Shown here: positions 19,528 to 29,055 of the stretch, one piece after another
Layout: the number at the start of each line of letters is the position of its first letter
Position numbering within the stretch: position 1 is the first letter of the stretch
NCBI GenBank assembly: GCA_029392475.1
Contig: CP113940.1
Location: forward strand, 372,001-436,000
Length of the DNA stretch: 64,000 nt
From: Streptococcaceae bacterium ESL0687
GTDB taxonomy: Bacteria > Bacillota > Bacilli > Lactobacillales > Streptococcaceae
Direction: 5' to 3'
Position numbers and translations under genes: made by a program
The notes under the pieces: model-generated
What the model saw: the letters and a program-made list of their open reading frames with translations, nothing else
The model's database searches: none
What the model was told of the DNA's origin: nothing

Positions 19528-20955
19528 ATGACACAAGCAAACTTTGGTGTAGTTGGTATGGCCGTTATGGGTCGTAACCTTGCCTTAAATATTGAATCAC
19601 GTGGCTATAATGTTGCGATCTATAACCGTAGCGCAGAAAAAACTGAGGATGTAGTTAAGAGCTACCCTGAAAAAAACTTTGTACCAAGCTATGACATTGA
19701 GTCATTTGTAAAATCAATTGAAAAACCACGCCGCATTATGCTTATGGTGCAAGCAGGTTTTGCAACTGATGCAACTATCCAAAGCCTTCTTCCATTCTTA
19801 GACAAGGGAGATATTCTAATTGACGGTGGTAACACTTACTACAAAGACACAATCCGCCGTAACAATGAACTTGCTGACTCAGGAATCAACTTCATCGGTA
19901 CAGGTGTATCTGGTGGGGAAAAAGGAGCCCTTGAAGGTCCTTCAATCATGCCAGGTGGACAACGCGAAGCTTACGATTTAATCGCTCCGGTCTTTGAAGA
20001 AATCTCAGCTAAGGCTCCTGAAGACGGAAAACCTTGTGTTACTTACATCGGCCCTGATGGAGCTGGTCACTATGTTAAGATGGTTCATAACGGAATCGAA
20101 TACGGTGACATGCAGCTTATTGCTGAATCATATGATCTAATGAAGCACTTACTAGATCTTGATGCTAGCGAAATGGCTGAAATCTTTACAGAGTGGAACA
20201 AGGGTGAGCTTGATTCATACCTAATTGAAATCACAGCTGACATTCTTACTCGTAAGGATGATGAAGGAGAGAAAGGTCCAGTTGTTGACTATATCCTTGA
20301 TGCTGCTGGTAACAAGGGAACAGGTAAATGGACTAGCCAATCTGCTCTTGATTTAGGTGTTCCACTACCACTAATCACAGAATCAGTATTTGCCCGTTAC
20401 ATCTCAGCTTATAAAGATGAACGTGTTAAGGCAAGTGAGATCTTACCAAAGGCAGATGCTCCTAAGTTTTCTGGCGACAAGGCAGAGCTTGTTGAAAAAA
20501 TTCGTCAAGCCCTATACTTCTCAAAAATTATGAGCTATGCTCAAGGATTTGCTCAACTTAGATCAGCAAGTAAGGAATATGACTGGGATCTTCCATTTGG
20601 TGATATCGCAAGCATCTGGCGTGCTGGATGTATCATCCGTGCTCGTTTCCTACAAAAAATTACTGATGCTTACGACCGTAACGCTGACCTTGAAAACCTT
20701 CTTCTTGATGAATACTTCGTTGAAATCACTAAGAAATACCAACAGTCAGTTCGTGACGTTGTAGCCCTTGCAGTTCAAGCAGGAGTGCCAGTACCAACCT
20801 TCTCAAGTGCTATTGCCTACTTTGATAGCTACAGAAGTGCAGTCCTTCCAGCCAACCTAATCCAGGCTCAACGTGACTACTTCGGTGCCCATACATACAA
20901 ACGTACCGACCGTGAAGGAACCTTCCACTACGACTGGTATAGTGAAGATAAATAA
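19528..20955 (+). CDS. gnd: 6-phosphogluconate dehydrogenase, decarboxylating
   Basis: Converts 6-phosphogluconate to ribulose-5-phosphate with NADP reduction (oxidative pentose phosphate pathway). 475 residues: an N-terminal Rossmann domain with [10 protein letters not shown], the [19 protein letters not shown] substrate segment, and [10 protein letters not shown] with the catalytic Lys nearby. The all-helical C-terminal domain ends in a normal basic tail. It has its own promoter and terminator; the accessory islet begins directly after it. Confidence 0.96.
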
Positions 20956-20964
20956 TAAACAAAG

Positions 20965-20990
20965 AAAAACCTAGGAAACTAGGTTTTTTT
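20965..20990 (+). terminator. gnd terminator
   Basis: AAAAACCTAG (20965-20974) and CTAGGTTTTT (20979-20988) with a GAAA loop and T run. Confidence 0.9.
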
Positions 20991-20995
20991 CAATA

Positions 20996-21024
20996 TTGTG
21001 AACTTAAAATCTATATGATAAAAT
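20996..21024 (+). promoter_or_regulatory. Promoter of the Abi-like gene
   Basis: TTGTGA (20996-21001), 17 bases, TAAAAT (21019-21024) with an extended TGA. It covers the upstream in-frame ATG at 21023, which is why I start the gene at 21056. Confidence 0.65.
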
Positions 21025-21055
21025 GAGTCTTATCAATAGAAACTTGAGGAACTTA

Positions 21056-22033
21056 ATGAAAGAAAAAGGGAAGTCAACCAATTCTTTAATGAAACATATT
21101 AGAAATGACCACGGTATAAATATAGGGATAGGTCACTCTAGGGATAAAAGAGATCTCCTGAATATGGGCTATTTCCATTCGTACAAGGCTTATAGGTTTG
21201 TTAAAAAAATAAATAATCCTCTCGACATCCAGGAATTTAGTGAGATTAGGGACATTTATGATTTGGATAATGACCTTAAGGAGCTTTTGTATCCGGCAGT
21301 TATGAAAATTGAAACGGCCACTAAAAATTACACAATTGATTGTGTAGTTAGTGGTGGGCCGACAGATTTGCAGTCGATATATGAAACAAAAGCTAATCAT
21401 TACAGAGACTTCGAACCTGGGACTCCGGAACATAGAAGAGAGATAAAGAGTTTTTTGGAACTTAAAAAGAATATAGATGGTATTATTGCACGTAATTATA
21501 CTAAAAGTGACATAATACAACACTATGTTCATGAGAATCAGCCAGTTCCAGTATGGGCAGTTTTTGAATTAACTACATTAGGAGATCTTGGGTATTTTAT
21601 TGGTAGGTTGAACAATGACACCAGAGAAATATTAAGCAAAAATATTGGGATTTATGATAGACGTTATGACACTGCAAATAAAATTATTTCAAAACACCTT
21701 TATATAATTAAAGACTTGAGAAATGCTATAGCTCATAATAATCCAATTTTTGATTGCCGGTTTAAAACGGGGAAAGTTGATAAGGTAGTTATTAAACATC
21801 TAGAAGGGAATACAGGAGCTTCTAATATAAACTTTAATACGATAACGGATTATGTCTTACTGGTGGCTTACTATATGAGGTGTTTTCAATTTACTAGGAC
21901 AGAAATTAAGGCATTTTTAAGAGGATACGAAAGAATAATTAGTCAATACCAAGAAAAAGCTAATAACTCTAAAAATTATCGGATGATTTTTGATGTTGAT
22001 AGTACTTCTAAAATGCGTAAATTTAGGTTTTAA
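21056..22033 (+). CDS. Abi_2-family (AbiD/AbiF-like) abortive infection protein
   Basis: 325 residues from ATG 21056, which has GAGGA at 5-base spacing. The Abi_2 signature is visible: an N-terminal GYFHSYKAYRF segment and a C-terminal KDLRNAIAHNNPIFDC. The latter is an R-X4-H motif (Arg222, His227) of the HEPN RNase superfamily to which Abi_2 proteins belong. Lactococcal AbiD/AbiF proteins of this family stop phage growth by killing or arresting the infected cell. There is no terminator between this gene and the small RNA just downstream. Base composition is more AT-rich than gnd, suggesting acquisition. The subfamily assignment is by motif, so AbiD versus AbiF cannot be decided. Confidence 0.8.
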   Translation: MKEKGKSTNSLMKHIRNDHGINIGIGHSRDKRDLLNMGYFHSYKAYRFVKKINNPLDIQEFSEIRDIYDLDNDLKELLYPAVMKIETATKNYTIDCVVSGGPTDLQSIYETKANHYRDFEPGTPEHRREIKSFLELKKNIDGIIARNYTKSDIIQHYVHENQPVPVWAVFELTTLGDLGYFIGRLNNDTREILSKNIGIYDRRYDTANKIISKHLYIIKDLRNAIAHNNPIFDCRFKTGKVDKVVIKHLEGNTGASNINFNTITDYVLLVAYYMRCFQFTRTEIKAFLRGYERIISQYQEKANNSKNYRMIFDVDSTSKMRKFRF

Positions 22034-22035
22034 TA

Positions 22036-22063
22036 TTGCATATTACATAAAAAGTGTTATAAT
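22036..22063 (+). promoter_or_regulatory. Promoter of the small RNA after the Abi gene
   Basis: TTGCAT (22036-22041), 16 bases, consensus TATAAT (22058-22063) preceded by an extended TGT. It begins 3 bases after the Abi stop codon. Confidence 0.8.
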
Positions 22064-22069
22064 AGTCTT

Positions 22070-22134
22070 ACTAATAGCGGTGTTGCTTTGCGGAGCGCAT
22101 CTGAAGGCAGTGGATTCGTTCACTGCTTTTTTTG
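22070..22134 (+). ncRNA. Small RNA of about 65 nt linked to the Abi_2 gene (abiF-RNA-like)
   Basis: A compact transcript from about 22070 to the T run at 22127-22133. Stem 1 is TGTTGCT with AGCGCA (one bulged T). Stem 2 is the terminator GCAGTGGA-TTCG-TTCACTGC, 8 pairs with a UUCG loop, then seven T. It has no plausible open frame. A conserved RNA motif named abiF RNA has been reported beside abiF-type genes; position and size agree, but the consensus was not compared. It could be an antitoxin-like RNA for the HEPN protein or a guide/sensor RNA. Confidence 0.7.
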
Positions 22135-22304
22135 TGTTTATTTTAAAAATAAGGAATCATCTTCATCCAGCTTTATACAAATATTCATCTAAAATTGATA
22201 TAATAGCTATAATATAGAAGATATGTGAAGTTATTTTAGATAAATAATCCTTGAAGGAGCTTATATTAATTTCTGAGTTGATTGGTCAAAATATATTTTT
22301 GGAA

Positions 22305-22333
22305 TTGACTGGCAACTTTATTAAAAATATAGT
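22305..22333 (+). promoter_or_regulatory. Promoter of the TIR gene
   Basis: TTGACT (22305-22310), 17 bases, TATAGT (22328-22333). The TIR gene is therefore probably a separate transcript from the Abi gene. In 22134-22304 I see nothing but AT-rich sequence. Confidence 0.65.
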
Positions 22334-22387
22334 TTAAGTTAAGAAGAAATTGACCTCATAGAAGAGAAAGTGGAGGAGATGGGATAG

Positions 22388-23359
22388 TTGAAGAAAAGAG
22401 TATTTATTTCTTACGCATGGGAAGAACAAACTGAGGCTGATAAAAAAGTAAAAGCATTTGTTGATGGACTGGCAATTTTTTTAAAAACTTTTGATTTGGA
22501 CGTGTTGCTTGATAGATATGAAAATCATCCGGGTTCTAATCTTGATAAATTCATGTCAGAAGGTATTGATTCCTCAAATTTTGTAATATGTGTATGTACA
22601 GAAACTTATATTAAAAAAATGAAAAATCAAAATTCAGGAGTTTATAACGAGATTACATTATTAAGTAAAATGTCAGATAGCCCTTTTATAATTCCAATTA
22701 TTGAAATAGGATATTTTATTGATTTACCAGAATTTTTTAAAGGTAAATTTGTTAGTCAATTATTTCTAAACGACTTTAGGTCTCCTGAAAATAAGTCTCC
22801 ACTATATGAATTAATAAATACCTTGATGGGTAAGAATCTATCTATTAAAGATGTGGTTCCTAAAATAAGAATCGAAAATTATTATGAATCGTCAAAAGAT
22901 TTGCAATTATACGGAGATGTAACAGAGTTAATGAGGTTTGAGAATGAGATGGAGAAGACTGTTTATTTTCAATATTCACTGGATGAAGGGAAAATTGATA
23001 TTGGAATTCCACCGATGAATTTTGCAACTGAATGGACTGAACGTGATGAAAGCAGTATCTATGTTTACAAAAATGTTCAAAAAATGTTTTATATTAATAA
23101 TTTTAAAAATTTTGAAGAAGTACACTCGCCTGGATATTTAAATGAAAATAGAGATGATTTAATGTCGATTAAGCGGGTTACTGATTTAGTGGTCGGAGAT
23201 GGTATTGTGTGGATAAATGACAGTAATCATGTTGCGATTGGTAAAATATTAGATATTAAATTTAGTAGAGAACGAGAAAATAGATCTAAAAATATAGTTA
23301 CATTTAAGTATAGAATTTTAAATCCAATTGACTTAACTGAAGATTTCAAGGAAGAATAA
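22388..23359 (+). CDS. TIR-domain protein with an unknown C-terminal half
   Basis: 323 residues from TTG 22388, with GGAGGAG at 22372-22378. The N-terminal ~130 residues are a bacterial TIR/SEFIR-type domain: RVFISYAW at 4-11, a DRYENHPGSNLDKFM loop, VICVCTETY at 66-74, and GVYNEITLL with Glu88 in the position expected of the NADase glutamate. The C-terminal half (about 165-323) has no motif I recognise and no membrane segment. Bacterial TIR proteins usually degrade NAD or make signalling nucleotides during phage infection. The gene is very AT-rich compared with its flanks. Fusion partner and trigger are unknown. Confidence 0.8.
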   Translation: MKKRVFISYAWEEQTEADKKVKAFVDGLAIFLKTFDLDVLLDRYENHPGSNLDKFMSEGIDSSNFVICVCTETYIKKMKNQNSGVYNEITLLSKMSDSPFIIPIIEIGYFIDLPEFFKGKFVSQLFLNDFRSPENKSPLYELINTLMGKNLSIKDVVPKIRIENYYESSKDLQLYGDVTELMRFENEMEKTVYFQYSLDEGKIDIGIPPMNFATEWTERDESSIYVYKNVQKMFYINNFKNFEEVHSPGYLNENRDDLMSIKRVTDLVVGDGIVWINDSNHVAIGKILDIKFSRERENRSKNIVTFKYRILNPIDLTEDFKEE

Positions 23360-25473: not shown

Positions 25474-26100
25474 ATGAAGAAAAAATGGAGTAGCTTAAGT
25501 AAGTGGAAAAGAATTAGTATCTTAGTTGCCCTTCTTTTTGCGACAGTTGTTATAGTTCCAAGTTGTAGTTCAAGTGAATCGACTGCGAGTAAACGGATTT
25601 TAGAATTAAAATCTGAGTTAAAGAAAGTATCGCAAGAAAAAGATGAGGCTGTAAAAAGTGCCCAGGCGGCAGAGAAAAGAGCTACTGAAGCTGAAAACAA
25701 GCTGAAAGAAGCTGAGGACGCCAAAAAGGCTGAAGAAGCTAAAAAAGTTGAAGAAGCCAAAAAGGCCGAAGAAGCCAAGAAGGCTGAAGAAGCCAAGAAG
25801 GCTGAAGAAGCCAAGAAGGCTGAAGAAGCCAAGAAGGCTGAAGAAGCCAAAAAGGCCGAAGAAGCCAAGAAGGCTGAAGAAGCTAAAAAGGCTGAAGAAG
25901 CAAGACAAGCTGAAGAAGCGAGGCAAGCTCAAGAAGCCGCTGCAGCTCAGGCAGCTCAAGTACAACCCCAAACTCAGTCTCAGACCCAGGTTCCAGCCTC
26001 GGCAGGAGGTTATACAAAGGATGCCAAAGGTAGATGGCATAGATCAAATGGACAATACGCTTCAAAAGCTGAAATCGCAGCAGCAGGCCTAGCCTGGTAA
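25474..26100 (+). CDS. Cell-envelope coiled-coil protein with KKAEEA repeats
   Basis: 208 residues. A basic N-terminus and one hydrophobic segment (about 13-30) end in VPSCSSS, a poor lipobox candidate or an anchor. A charged coiled coil (40-155) follows, including twelve tandem hexapeptides of AKKAEE type. Then a Gln-rich linker leads to a C-terminal GRWHRSNGQYASKAEI motif seen at the ends of other Firmicutes proteins. I infer an envelope-anchored stalk displaying or tethering the C-terminal motif. Function unknown. A terminator follows. Confidence 0.75.
   Translation: MKKKWSSLSKWKRISILVALLFATVVIVPSCSSSESTASKRILELKSELKKVSQEKDEAVKSAQAAEKRATEAENKLKEAEDAKKAEEAKKVEEAKKAEEAKKAEEAKKAEEAKKAEEAKKAEEAKKAEEAKKAEEAKKAEEARQAEEARQAQEAAAAQAAQVQPQTQSQTQVPASAGGYTKDAKGRWHRSNGQYASKAEIAAAGLAW
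25720..25935 (+). repeat. Twelve tandem 18-bp coding repeats
   Basis: Twelve in-frame 18-base units coding AKKAEE or close variants; the central ones are identical or nearly so (GCCAAGAAGGCTGAAGAA). Such near-identical units change copy number easily by slippage. Confidence 0.9.
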
Positions 26101-26126
26101 AAAAAGCCATCTTAGATGGCTTTTTT
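26101..26126 (+). terminator. Terminator after the coiled-coil gene
   Basis: AAAAAGCCATC with GATGGCTTTTTT around a TTA loop. Confidence 0.9.
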
Positions 26127-26171
26127 GCTGGTGAAATTCTTGTAAATTTACTAGCAAAAAGTTGATAATTC

Positions 26172-26180
26172 TGCTATAAT
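26172..26180 (+). promoter_or_regulatory. tRNA-Arg promoter (extended -10)
   Basis: TGCTATAAT, a consensus extended -10 about 12 bases before the expected transcript start; no clear -35. Confidence 0.65.
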
Positions 26181-26198
26181 TATTTCTTGTAGTGGTTG

Positions 26199-26270
26199 GA
26201 CCCCTTAGTTAAATGGATATAACAAGTTCCTCCTAAGAATTAGTTGCTGGTTCGATTCCGGCAGGGGTCA
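26199..26270 (+). tRNA. tRNA-Arg (anticodon CCT)
   Basis: Acceptor stem GACCCCT with AGGGGTC, D arm GTTA/TAAC, anticodon arm AGTTC/GAATT with loop CTCCTAA and anticodon CCT at 26232-26234. Variable loop AGTT and T arm GCTGG-TTCGATT-CCGGC. The discriminator is A and CCA is not encoded. It reads AGG codons. Confidence 0.93.
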
Positions 26271-26295
26271 TTTTTGAAGACTTAAAGAAAATTTA

Positions 26296-26340
26296 AAAAC
26301 TGTCAAATCCTTAAAATAAAAGGGTTTAGGCAGTTTTTTT
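26296..26340 (+). terminator. tRNA-Arg terminator
   Basis: AAACTG...AAATCC pairs with GGGTTT...CAGTTT, then a T run. From 26341 to 26506 I see only AT-rich sequence. Confidence 0.75.
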
Positions 26341-26506
26341 ATTTGTATAAATTTATTTGAAAAAATATTTTTTTTGACCAATTATTTGTCATGATAATAG
26401 TTAATAAAGTTTTGTATATAGTTTAGTGCATTGAATTTATTTTTATTATGAATTATAATGGCTCTTATGAATCAATAGTTGTTTTAATTTTTGAATTTTA
26501 TATTTG

Positions 26507-26535
26507 TTGACTATATTAGATGACTCACTTATGAT
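26507..26535 (+). promoter_or_regulatory. Adhesin promoter
   Basis: TTGACT (26507-26512), 17 bases, TATGAT (26530-26535); about 48 bases of leader before AGGAG and ATG. Confidence 0.65.
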
Positions 26536-26589
26536 GCATCACAAAAAATTTTAAGCAACTATTATATTATAGTTTGTTAGGAGTTGAAA

Positions 26590-29055
26590 ATGGATATTTT
26601 GCAAAAAGAAGATTTTAAAATTTTGAGCAAATTAAATAAAAAGAGAGCTGCTATAGCTTTGATTTCTTTTACATCGTTTTTATGTTGTAGTAGCTATAAT
26701 GTTACTACGGTAATGGGGGACTCAAGTGTGAGTAGTCCAACAATTGTTATGCCTGATACAGGAGAGATTACTGATATCAAAGTCCTAATTGGTGTAAATA
26801 ATAGTGTAATGAGTTCCGGAGACTCTATTCAATTACCTGGGCAGAATTTTCAGATCAGCTCAATTAAATTATCGTTTATGTTAACTCAAAAAGGAACTTT
26901 AAAACCAAATACAGTTCTAAGGATTCCGGTATCTTTAACCAATAATTCTAACCCATTACCTAAGACATTATTAAGTTCTGGGGGAATACTTAATATTTTG
27001 GACGATAATATGAATGTAGGTACTATACAGTATGTGTCAGAAGATAGATTTGGTAACTCTGGATACTACAAGATAGTTTTATCCAGTGAGTTCGAATTGG
27101 AGGATGGAGAATCTGCTTCTGTATCAGTTAATTTTTCCCCGTCTAGCTCTTCTTTTATTACTGCTTTTAATAGCACAGAACCTATAATTTTAACTATAGA
27201 TAGAAGTGCATTTTCTTTTGTTCCTAAAAGGAGAATATATGAAAAAGATAGTGGATGGTATAATACAAATGATTTTGCATACAGTCCCAGTGCAAGTCAA
27301 ATTAATATCGGTACAGCAATTAAAGATCCTGATTATCTAAATAATGCCCTATCGCTTTCAGCTGATACAAATTCAGATACAGGTATTCCTGATGGAGATG
27401 TGATAAATATTGAGAGGGTAACTGTTAAAGGATCACCTGTAATTGGAATTTCTATTGATGATTATTTAGGAAATCATACTTTAAAACTCAGTGAAGATGG
27501 TACTTATCTGATTAAAAATGATAATTCAGGAGATGTGAATTTTCCAATTGGAACAGGTGTTACAAATCTTATTACCTTACCTAGCGGGTTGTCAGATGAG
27601 GCTATATTGGAGGCATTGCATCAAAGCGGGAAAAATAGTGGAGCTATTATTGATGAGGGGAACGGACATTATATAATTGCTTACAATTTTGGAAGATTGA
27701 TTGGTCCAGGGGCCTATACATATCACGATTTATTTCCAAATGATGACGGTGCAACCATATCTAATAACCTTCAGGAAGTAAAGAGGAGTGAGTCAGTTAC
27801 AGAAGACCTAAATAAAAAGTTATCTAGTCTCTATGCTTTTCATAGTTCGGAGTTACAAACATCGATTAATTTTAGTGACTCTAGTATATCAAATAGTATT
27901 TCAGGAGTTGGAACACAATATGATGTAAACGATACTAGTATAATTAAGATTAATGTTTCAAATTATAACTCTAATACAACACCATCTAGTGCCCGTTCTG
28001 AGGATCAGAGTAAGATAACTGTTCATTATGTTGATGAAGATGGTAAAGAGTTAGCCCTACAGTCTTATTCTTACGGGTATCCTATGGAATATGGAGGTAT
28101 TGAAGCATCACTAAATTATTTGGCAGATAAAAAGGCAATCCCTGGTTATACTCTTGTTACTACTAGCAGTCCCATTTCAGAAATTTCAGGAATTCAATTA
28201 ACTAATTCTGAGTCAATACCATTTCTTGAGAATGATCAGGTATATTACTATGTGTACAAAAAGGATGAACCGATAATTACAACTGAGTCAAGTACAGTTA
28301 ATGAAACGATTCACTACCAATTTCTAGATGGATCCCAAGCGGCTAATACTTACACAAGAGGGATAACTTTCATACGTTCAGTCTCAATAGATGCGGTTAC
28401 AGGTGAAAAAAATTATGGCTCGTGGAGTCCTGATCAAAGTTTTATACCAGTTGTAAGTCCAATTTTGAAAGGTTATACTGCAGATAAAACAGAAATTAAT
28501 TCTGAAACGGTTAGCGGTTATTCAAATGATTTGGCCTACACAGTAGTTTATACTAAGGACGATCCGATTATGACTACTGAATCAAAAACAGTAAAAGAAA
28601 CCATCCAATATAAATATTCAGATGGAAGTCAAGCATCTATGACTTATACCAAAGTTTTGACTTTTACTCGCTCAGTTTCGATAGATGAAACAAGTGGTGA
28701 AAAAACTTACGGGCAATGGAGTGAGGATCAAGCCTTTGATTATGTGGAAAGTCCTAAGCTTGAAGGATATACTGCGGATAAGACATCGATTGCCTCTCAG
28801 GTAGTAAGTGGAGATTCAAGTGATTTAAACTATATTGTTACTTATACAAGGAATTCAGTACCTAGTTTAAACAATGACAAATTGGGTACACCCGAAGCAG
28901 ATCCAAGGTATGTATCTGCGGACTTACCAGAGACAGGTATTAATACAGCCAGTGAAAACAGCAGAATAATTGTAATAGTTTCTGCACCTGCGGCTTTGTT
29001 AGTCATGTTGTTCGTCTATATGCACACCAAAAAGAAAAATGAGAGTGATAAATAA
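26590..29055 (+). CDS. LPXTG-anchored mucin-binding-type adhesin
   Basis: 821 residues from ATG 26590, which has AGGAG at 6-base spacing (a TTG at 26584 has none). A signal peptide spans about 1-45. The large N-terminal region (to about 470) is of unknown fold. A MucBP-like unit starts at ITVHYVDEDGKEL, then come two ~95-residue Muc_B2-like repeats, each with an ETI(H/Q)Y start, a TRSVSID segment and a GYTADKT end. The wall-sorting signal is LPETG, a hydrophobic stretch and a KKK tail. It is expected to be linked to peptidoglycan by sortase A and to bind host or plant glycans. AT-rich relative to flanks and next to a tRNA gene, suggesting acquisition. Confidence 0.88.
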   Translation: MDILQKEDFKILSKLNKKRAAIALISFTSFLCCSSYNVTTVMGDSSVSSPTIVMPDTGEITDIKVLIGVNNSVMSSGDSIQLPGQNFQISSIKLSFMLTQKGTLKPNTVLRIPVSLTNNSNPLPKTLLSSGGILNILDDNMNVGTIQYVSEDRFGNSGYYKIVLSSEFELEDGESASVSVNFSPSSSSFITAFNSTEPIILTIDRSAFSFVPKRRIYEKDSGWYNTNDFAYSPSASQINIGTAIKDPDYLNNALSLSADTNSDTGIPDGDVINIERVTVKGSPVIGISIDDYLGNHTLKLSEDGTYLIKNDNSGDVNFPIGTGVTNLITLPSGLSDEAILEALHQSGKNSGAIIDEGNGHYIIAYNFGRLIGPGAYTYHDLFPNDDGATISNNLQEVKRSESVTEDLNKKLSSLYAFHSSELQTSINFSDSSISNSISGVGTQYDVNDTSIIKINVSNYNSNTTPSSARSEDQSKITVHYVDEDGKELALQSYSYGYPMEYGGIEASLNYLADKKAIPGYTLVTTSSPISEISGIQLTNSESIPFLENDQVYYYVYKKDEPIITTESSTVNETIHYQFLDGSQAANTYTRGITFIRSVSIDAVTGEKNYGSWSPDQSFIPVVSPILKGYTADKTEINSETVSGYSNDLAYTVVYTKDDPIMTTESKTVKETIQYKYSDGSQASMTYTKVLTFTRSVSIDETSGEKTYGQWSEDQAFDYVESPKLEGYTADKTSIASQVVSGDSSDLNYIVTYTRNSVPSLNNDKLGTPEADPRYVSADLPETGINTASENSRIIVIVSAPAALLVMLFVYMHTKKKNESDK

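Follow-up and report, generated by a model that had tools for sequence, protein, structure and literature searches.

RNA partners of AbiF-type proteins

The closest described relatives of the locus considered here are AbiF-type abortive-infection proteins paired with small structured RNAs. RCd22, an RNA of C. difficile, binds AbiF directly and thereby neutralises it, and changing the Arg and His of the AbiF motif abolishes toxicity (PMC12373285). The PbAbiF RNA, as summarised in a review, inhibits the PbAbiF RNase (PMC12737573). Given RCd22 and the structure of PbAbiF with its RNA (8vz6), the remark in a preliminary description of our locus that the mechanism of abiF RNA was little described is out of date. 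Phages, too, are known to carry such RNAs: the pseudo-ToxI of phage PhiTE is a tested precedent for a phage-borne mimic of an RNA antitoxin (PMC3475682), and a review mentions a cyanophage with an abiF sRNA of unknown role (PMC12197685).

The locus lies in a 64,000-nt stretch of contig CP113940.1 (Streptococcaceae bacterium ESL0687), hereafter ‘the window’. Its features, numbered from the first letter of the window, are as follows.

20994–22124, no strand assigned: exchangeable cassette of abi and RNA, bounded by two terminator T-runs; a relative of the same genus has a Fic gene in its place
20996–21024, plus strand: putative promoter-like site for abi, TTGTGA-N17-TAAAAT, with TG before the -10
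21056–22033, plus strand: abi gene, its predicted product a HEPN RNase-like toxin (325 aa) in the Abi_2/AbiD-F family; a second possible ATG is at 21023
21719–21736, plus strand: HEPN catalytic motif R222-NAIA-H227, with R222 and H227 invariant in two alignments
22036–22063, plus strand: RNA promoter read from the sequence, -35 TTGCAT at 22036–22041 and extended -10 TGT-TATAAT at 22055–22063, a layout shared by 70 loci
22071–22131, plus strand: RNA of ~61 nt, proposed antitoxin, of a class captured by covariance models R1 and R2
22079–22101, plus strand: hairpin 1, GGUGU/GCAUC and GCUU/GAGC helices with a UGCG loop (fold of the RNA alone; covariation)
22103–22133, plus strand: hairpin 2 (12 bp, UUCG loop) and T-run, forming the terminator (terminator scan; covariation; tip kept in phage copies)

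We think it likely that abi and this RNA together make up a two-part toxin–antitoxin or abortive-infection module, in which an RNase toxin is paired with a separately transcribed RNA antitoxin.

The abi gene and its protein

The assignment of abi to the Abi_2 family in the preliminary description is well founded: the protein matches Pfam Abi_2 (PF07751) with an E-value of 1.1e-27 and 97.9 bits (cut-off 25.6), its sole PADLOC match is AbiD (E 1.8e-27), and with translation starting at 21056 the R-X4-H motif falls at exactly the residues first given for it, 222–227. R222, N223 and H227 are invariant across 41 aligned sequences. The start at 21056 is preferred over the ATG at 21023 because the latter overlaps the -10 box of the promoter-like site (TTGTGA at 20996, TAAAAT ending at 21024) and because the later start is the usual one in most relatives; the promoter-like site is itself, taken alone, not above chance (9 such sites in the region versus 7.5 expected). 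The stop codon occupies 22031–22033.

An AlphaFold2 model of the protein (pLDDT 88) had 8vz6, the structure of PbAbiF with its RNA, as its sole Foldseek match at E ≤ 0.001 (E 1.9e-6), and a profile match to the same entry was obtained at E 2e-6. Model and structure align with a Z-score of 20.0 at 3.4 Å over 274 residues, including the HEPN Arg/His region. Foldseek matches ranked under 8vz6 were not significant, and the rows of intermediate Z are helical look-alikes. On the Pfam domain, the R-X4-H motif and the AbiF fold, the protein is a member of the Abi_2/AbiD-F HEPN family; motif, family and fold further suggest that it would be a dimeric HEPN ribonuclease toxin.

A conserved two-hairpin RNA with its own promoter

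Relatives of the Abi protein were gathered first, and the DNA 3′ of each gene was then read for RNA. The extended -10 promoter that had been proposed directly after abi is present: TTGCAT starts 3 bases past the abi stop codon and is separated by a 16-nt spacer from TATAAT, which is preceded by TGT. The layout recurs in 70 upstream regions (the window included), in which the -10 box usually ends 8–9 nt before the RNA and the first two -35 positions are T in 81% and 74% of cases. As for the transcript, first described as a ~65-nt RNA with two stems and a UUCG-loop terminator, the two hairpins and the terminator (paired part 22103–22130, T-run ending at 22133) stand, and the length is revised to ~61 nt. 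Hairpin 1 consists of two stacked helices preceded by a single-stranded AAUAGC, the AA of which is invariant, and hairpin 2 has a conserved, GGAU-NCG-UC-like tip. Among the relatives the shared features are an AAUWGCGG start, a UNCG-type-capped hairpin, a short linker reading URA, and a terminator hairpin with GGAUGCGUC as its common tip, from which the tip of the window RNA differs. Folded alone, the exact RNA yields the same two hairpins (-22.0 kcal/mol, z -3.0). In a longer stretch with flanks the minimum-energy fold mispairs hairpin 1, and the evidence for the RNA is therefore its conservation rather than its energy.

That conservation is extensive. In a set of 38 divergent copies and a 20-pair structure, 95% of cells are paired, 19 of the 20 pairs include double changes, and double-change cells number 156 as against 51 in shuffles, while structures slid by 1–3 columns see paired cells drop to 37–51%; the RNA first proposed from the window thus gains covariance support. 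Of the two models, R1 is the full model with the window copy included and R2 excludes that copy. A model built without any Lactobacillales matched nothing in the window but 22072–22132 (E 2.4e-14), and across the whole genome from which the window comes the full model scores 60.9 bits at this locus, the next best match reaching 21 bits.

These results bear directly on one alternative, namely that there is only a terminator beside a chance promoter and no functional RNA. Hairpin 2 is indeed a good intrinsic terminator, and hairpin 1 is absent from the minimum-energy fold with flanks, but hairpin 1 has double changes in eight of its nine pairs among relatives, which refutes this reading, the model lacking Lactobacillales finds the whole RNA, and phage copies keep hairpin 1 even though several have no T-run; we find the alternative scarcely credible. 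The conservation also speaks to the idea that the RNA guides the Abi protein to target RNAs, as a Cas13-like forerunner would. Cas13d is the second-ranked fold match of the Abi model after PbAbiF (Z 10.5), and Cas13 has been reported as a descendant of AbiF (PMC12737573), but from transcription start to terminator the RNA is all conserved sequence or covarying stem with no variable spacer, and AbiF is described as unguided, as far as the account in PMC12948488 goes. With the variable segment absent, we reject the guide reading as highly improbable.

The RNA is not the abiF RNA of Rfam (RF03085), with which the preliminary description had associated it. The RF03085 covariance model has no match in 20950–22400 even at E ≤ 10, and none at its gathering threshold in 40 homologous loci; among the loci tested, RF03085 and the R1/R2 class gave no matches in each other's loci. 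Placement differs as well, since RF03085 RNAs lie upstream of the Abi_2 genes of a different clade (as at the inspected loci L152, L183, L184 and L187) and ours lies downstream, and we rejected the identity. The RNA is real and conserved, and is a member of a widespread class, found in Bacillota, Actinomycetota and phages, that is missing from Rfam. The class is new relative to Rfam, although the 2025 Cell paper on AbiF may already contain it.

Linkage to one clade of Abi proteins

Linkage was counted over 102 distinct loci found by way of the protein, each followed by 120 nt or more of DNA; of these, 100 carry the RNA: 97 match R1 and three have divergent copies recognized by eye (L007, L008, L111). 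The two exceptions are L012, where the 3′-end is apparently disrupted by an insertion, and L136. All 123 R1 matches that adjoin an Abi gene are on the same strand as the gene, 122 of them downstream and one upstream, and 119 of the 122 lie 11–129 nt past the stop codon (median 46). In a protein tree the RNA-carrying Abi proteins form one clade (100/100 support) separate from the RF03085-linked and the other streptococcal Abi_2 proteins; as the loci were collected with Abi proteins of this very clade, it is partly defined by the search itself. This linkage is close to obligatory.

Two variants of the arrangement were seen. In a prophage contig (L121 2035–2095; L219 6639–6699) the RNA precedes the Abi gene, an order met in no other locus found, and in Vagococcus lutrae two tandem RNA copies follow one Abi gene (L044 3513–3571 and 3626–3686). 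Tandem copies occur only in Vagococcus (L044/L140), and the window has a single copy. Separately, matches to RF02589, the orphan S. pyogenes sRNA Spy779816, lie beyond the 3′ ends of divergent Abi_2 genes from streptococci, in convergent orientation (L021 2452–2534, L022 2420–2503, L029 2408–2489, L027 1052–1139), with only that at L022 exceeding the cut-off, and Spy392987 and Srn266 are present at L030. Orphan sRNAs may include more RNA classes that are linked to Abi_2 genes.

An apparently exchangeable cassette at a putative defence hotspot

Upstream of abi is gnd (6-phosphogluconate dehydrogenase), which has its own terminator. In a relative of the same genus, with a 99% identical gnd protein, a Fic gene stands in place of the segment that runs from the terminator of gnd to the RNA's T-run. 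Accordingly, abi and the RNA appear to travel as one unit, at a site that swaps defence or toxin–antitoxin genes. Directly after the module, at 22388–23359, the window has a bSEFIR (TIR/SEFIR-domain) defence gene, the slot of which is taken in the relative by restriction-modification genes (Eco57I/ResIII-type), and the region downstream of gnd looks like a defence hotspot. Farther along (25474–29055) we note an open reading frame with a long KAEEA repeat (25474–26100), a tRNA-Arg (26199–26270) and a large open reading frame (26584–29055) resembling a cell-wall-anchored surface protein.

Copies without a toxin in bacterial genomes

A scan of 398 genomes of the phylum (E ≤ 1e-6) gave 16 matches: the window, five beside intact Abi genes (one of these was read through a stop), one kept next to a 134-aa Abi remnant (L167), five solitary and four weaker. 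The five strong solitary copies (65–72 bits) are spread over four genomes (G670, G919 twice, G709, G623), in which no Abi gene of the RNA-linked type was found genome-wide and no trace of one in the examined flanks; draft genomes could conceal a toxin in a gap, which copies in complete phages cannot. Among the weaker matches (35–49 bits), L171 and L172 score 43–49 bits and have no Abi gene, while L173 and L175 (R1 35.5 bits) resemble ordinary terminators and were not counted. A putative DUF3800-like open reading frame, recognized by eye (L174 1614–2588, numbered in the orientation of the RNA), adjoins one of the two near-identical solitary copies in G919.

The RNA is thus kept where the toxin is truncated or absent, whereas intact toxins without the RNA are almost never seen, and this asymmetry is what would be expected of an antitoxin. 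It also weighs on the proposal that the RNA regulates the abi gene, as an attenuator or in an antisense-like manner, without binding the protein. RCd22 does act in cis as well, by terminating upstream of its gene (PMC12373285). In our case, however, the RNA follows the stop codon of abi and has a promoter and a terminator of its own, what is conserved is structure rather than complementarity to abi, and copies exist with no toxin gene to regulate, so that we judge such regulation distinctly improbable.

Copies in phages

Pattern scans of viral contigs recovered 15 copies of the RNA, 12 of them without an Abi gene. By BLAST, copies were located in complete and annotated genomes of Bacillus phages, among them SPβ (SPBc2), phi3T and SPR, the Bastillevirinae Goe3, Bp8p-C, phiAGATE, Bobb and BSP38 (with SIOphi, deposited as partial, as a further member) and the large phage KLEB27-3. 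BLAST of the window RNA itself against phages gave no match, and a pattern shaped on it matched no viral contig; the phage copies were found through other patterns, the covariance model, and BLAST with phage and Bacillaceae copies. Those in annotated phages score 58–67 bits, and in the eight annotated phage records searched whole there is no Abi_2 gene. Within 18 distinct phage copies 92% of cells are paired, with 54 double-change cells versus 18 in shuffles; because the structure still covaries, it is under selection in phages.

In these copies hairpin 2 usually lacks one of its pairs but retains its tip, and hairpin 1 is kept, which may point to the part that the Abi protein reads. Several lack the T-run yet keep hairpin 1, and a tRNA begins 0–10 nt past the end of the RNA in KLEB27-3, Bobb and contig L205, so that RNase P could make the 3′-end there. 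The terminator role is thus dispensable, the fold being kept, where a tRNA adjoins or the T-run is weak.

In SPβ the copy sits inside a 1.7-kb gene-free stretch between yonN and yonK. The same stretch has an Rfam DUF3800-VIII RNA (L221 3358–3423; 47.5 bits, above threshold), and no DUF3800 gene was found in SPβ, which suggests that decoy RNAs aimed at several RNA-antitoxin defences may be clustered in it. By analogy with PhiTE, the phage copies without a toxin are probably decoys against Abi. Taken in full, the proposal is that this is a second Abi_2-associated class of RNA antitoxin, whose sequence has no relation to that of abiF RNA and which has its own protein clade, and that Bacillus phages, both temperate SPβ-like ones and lytic Bastillevirinae, carry it as a decoy without the toxin; we regard the chances for and against this whole as evenly balanced.

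Proposed mechanism

We hypothesize that the Abi protein would act as a dimeric HEPN RNase toxin, and that the ~61-nt RNA, transcribed from its own strong promoter immediately after abi, would bind the protein directly through its two UNCG-type-capped hairpins and keep the RNase off. Phage infection would presumably upset the balance, for example if host transcription stopped or the RNA were degraded, and so free the RNase, while a phage-borne copy of the RNA would leave the toxin neutralised. An antitoxin is the most likely role for the RNA by analogy with RCd22 and the PbAbiF RNA. Of the roles first put forward for a partner of the Abi protein (antitoxin, substrate or trigger sensor), that of a dedicated, co-conserved partner holds, antitoxin is the likeliest of the three, and substrate and trigger sensor fit worse given the intact toxin-free copies.

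On a competing view, the RNA activates the Abi RNase or is a cofactor that the RNase requires, or else it is how a signal of infection reaches the protein; it would then not be an inhibitor. Obligate linkage and a conserved fold would suit any binding partner, and the phage copies might be taken for the thing that the host protein detects. An RNA that gave the phage away would however be expected to disappear, yet the structure covaries in the SPβ-like and Bastillevirinae copies; copies standing alone in bacteria, and the copy next to a truncated toxin, are expected of antitoxins; and RCd22 (PMC12373285) and, in the review's summary, the PbAbiF RNA (PMC12737573) inhibit homologous proteins. 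We therefore consider an activator unlikely.

Some points count against the antitoxin module. Canonical type III RNAs are upstream of the toxin, so that the two are transcribed together and their doses kept in balance; where the RNA is downstream and under a promoter of its own, that balance has to be struck in another way. In addition, the solitary copies could serve an unrelated purpose, and the tip of hairpin 2 in the window departs from the commonest form.

Significance and comparison with known systems

AbiF-type proteins have been reported as ancestors of Cas13 (PMC12737573), and the RNAs that accompany them mark the passage from antitoxin to guide. A second RNA class, different in structure and tied to another Abi_2 clade, offers an independent comparison. 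The phage copies make the role of the gene-free SPβ stretch testable in the best-known Gram-positive system, and bear on whether RNA decoys are a common anti-defence weapon. The class itself, present at more than 100 loci and absent from Rfam, can be annotated at once.

Among known systems, AbiF–RCd22 of C. difficile phi027/phiC2 (PMC12373285) shares with our locus a homologous Abi_2 HEPN protein, the R-X4-H motif and a small structured RNA adjoining the gene. RCd22, however, belongs to RF03085, has two abiF motifs, and is upstream of and co-transcribed with its gene, whereas the window RNA differs in sequence and fold (UNCG-type hairpins) and is downstream with its own promoter; the AbiF of RCd22 and our Abi protein also fall in separate clades. 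RF03085 abiF RNA is likewise a short structured RNA beside Abi_2 genes, but its consensus CCCGCCAAGCCUCUCAACGAUGCUCAAAUCGGCGGGU bears no resemblance to the window RNA. For PbAbiF–AbiFr (8vz6, Cell 2025; as covered in PMC12737573 and PMC12948488), the comparison concerns the proteins alone, which are alike at E 2e-6 and Z 20.0 with 14–16% identity. The likeness to AbiD/AbiD1 of Lactococcus comes from the PADLOC AbiD match. Finally, type III toxin–antitoxin systems such as ToxIN, with the PhiTE mimic (PMC3475682), resemble the module in having an RNase toxin (here predicted) with an RNA partner and antitoxin-like RNAs in phages. ToxI is a pseudoknot in tandem repeats upstream of a toxin of another family, whereas the window has a single two-hairpin RNA, downstream of the gene and with its own promoter.
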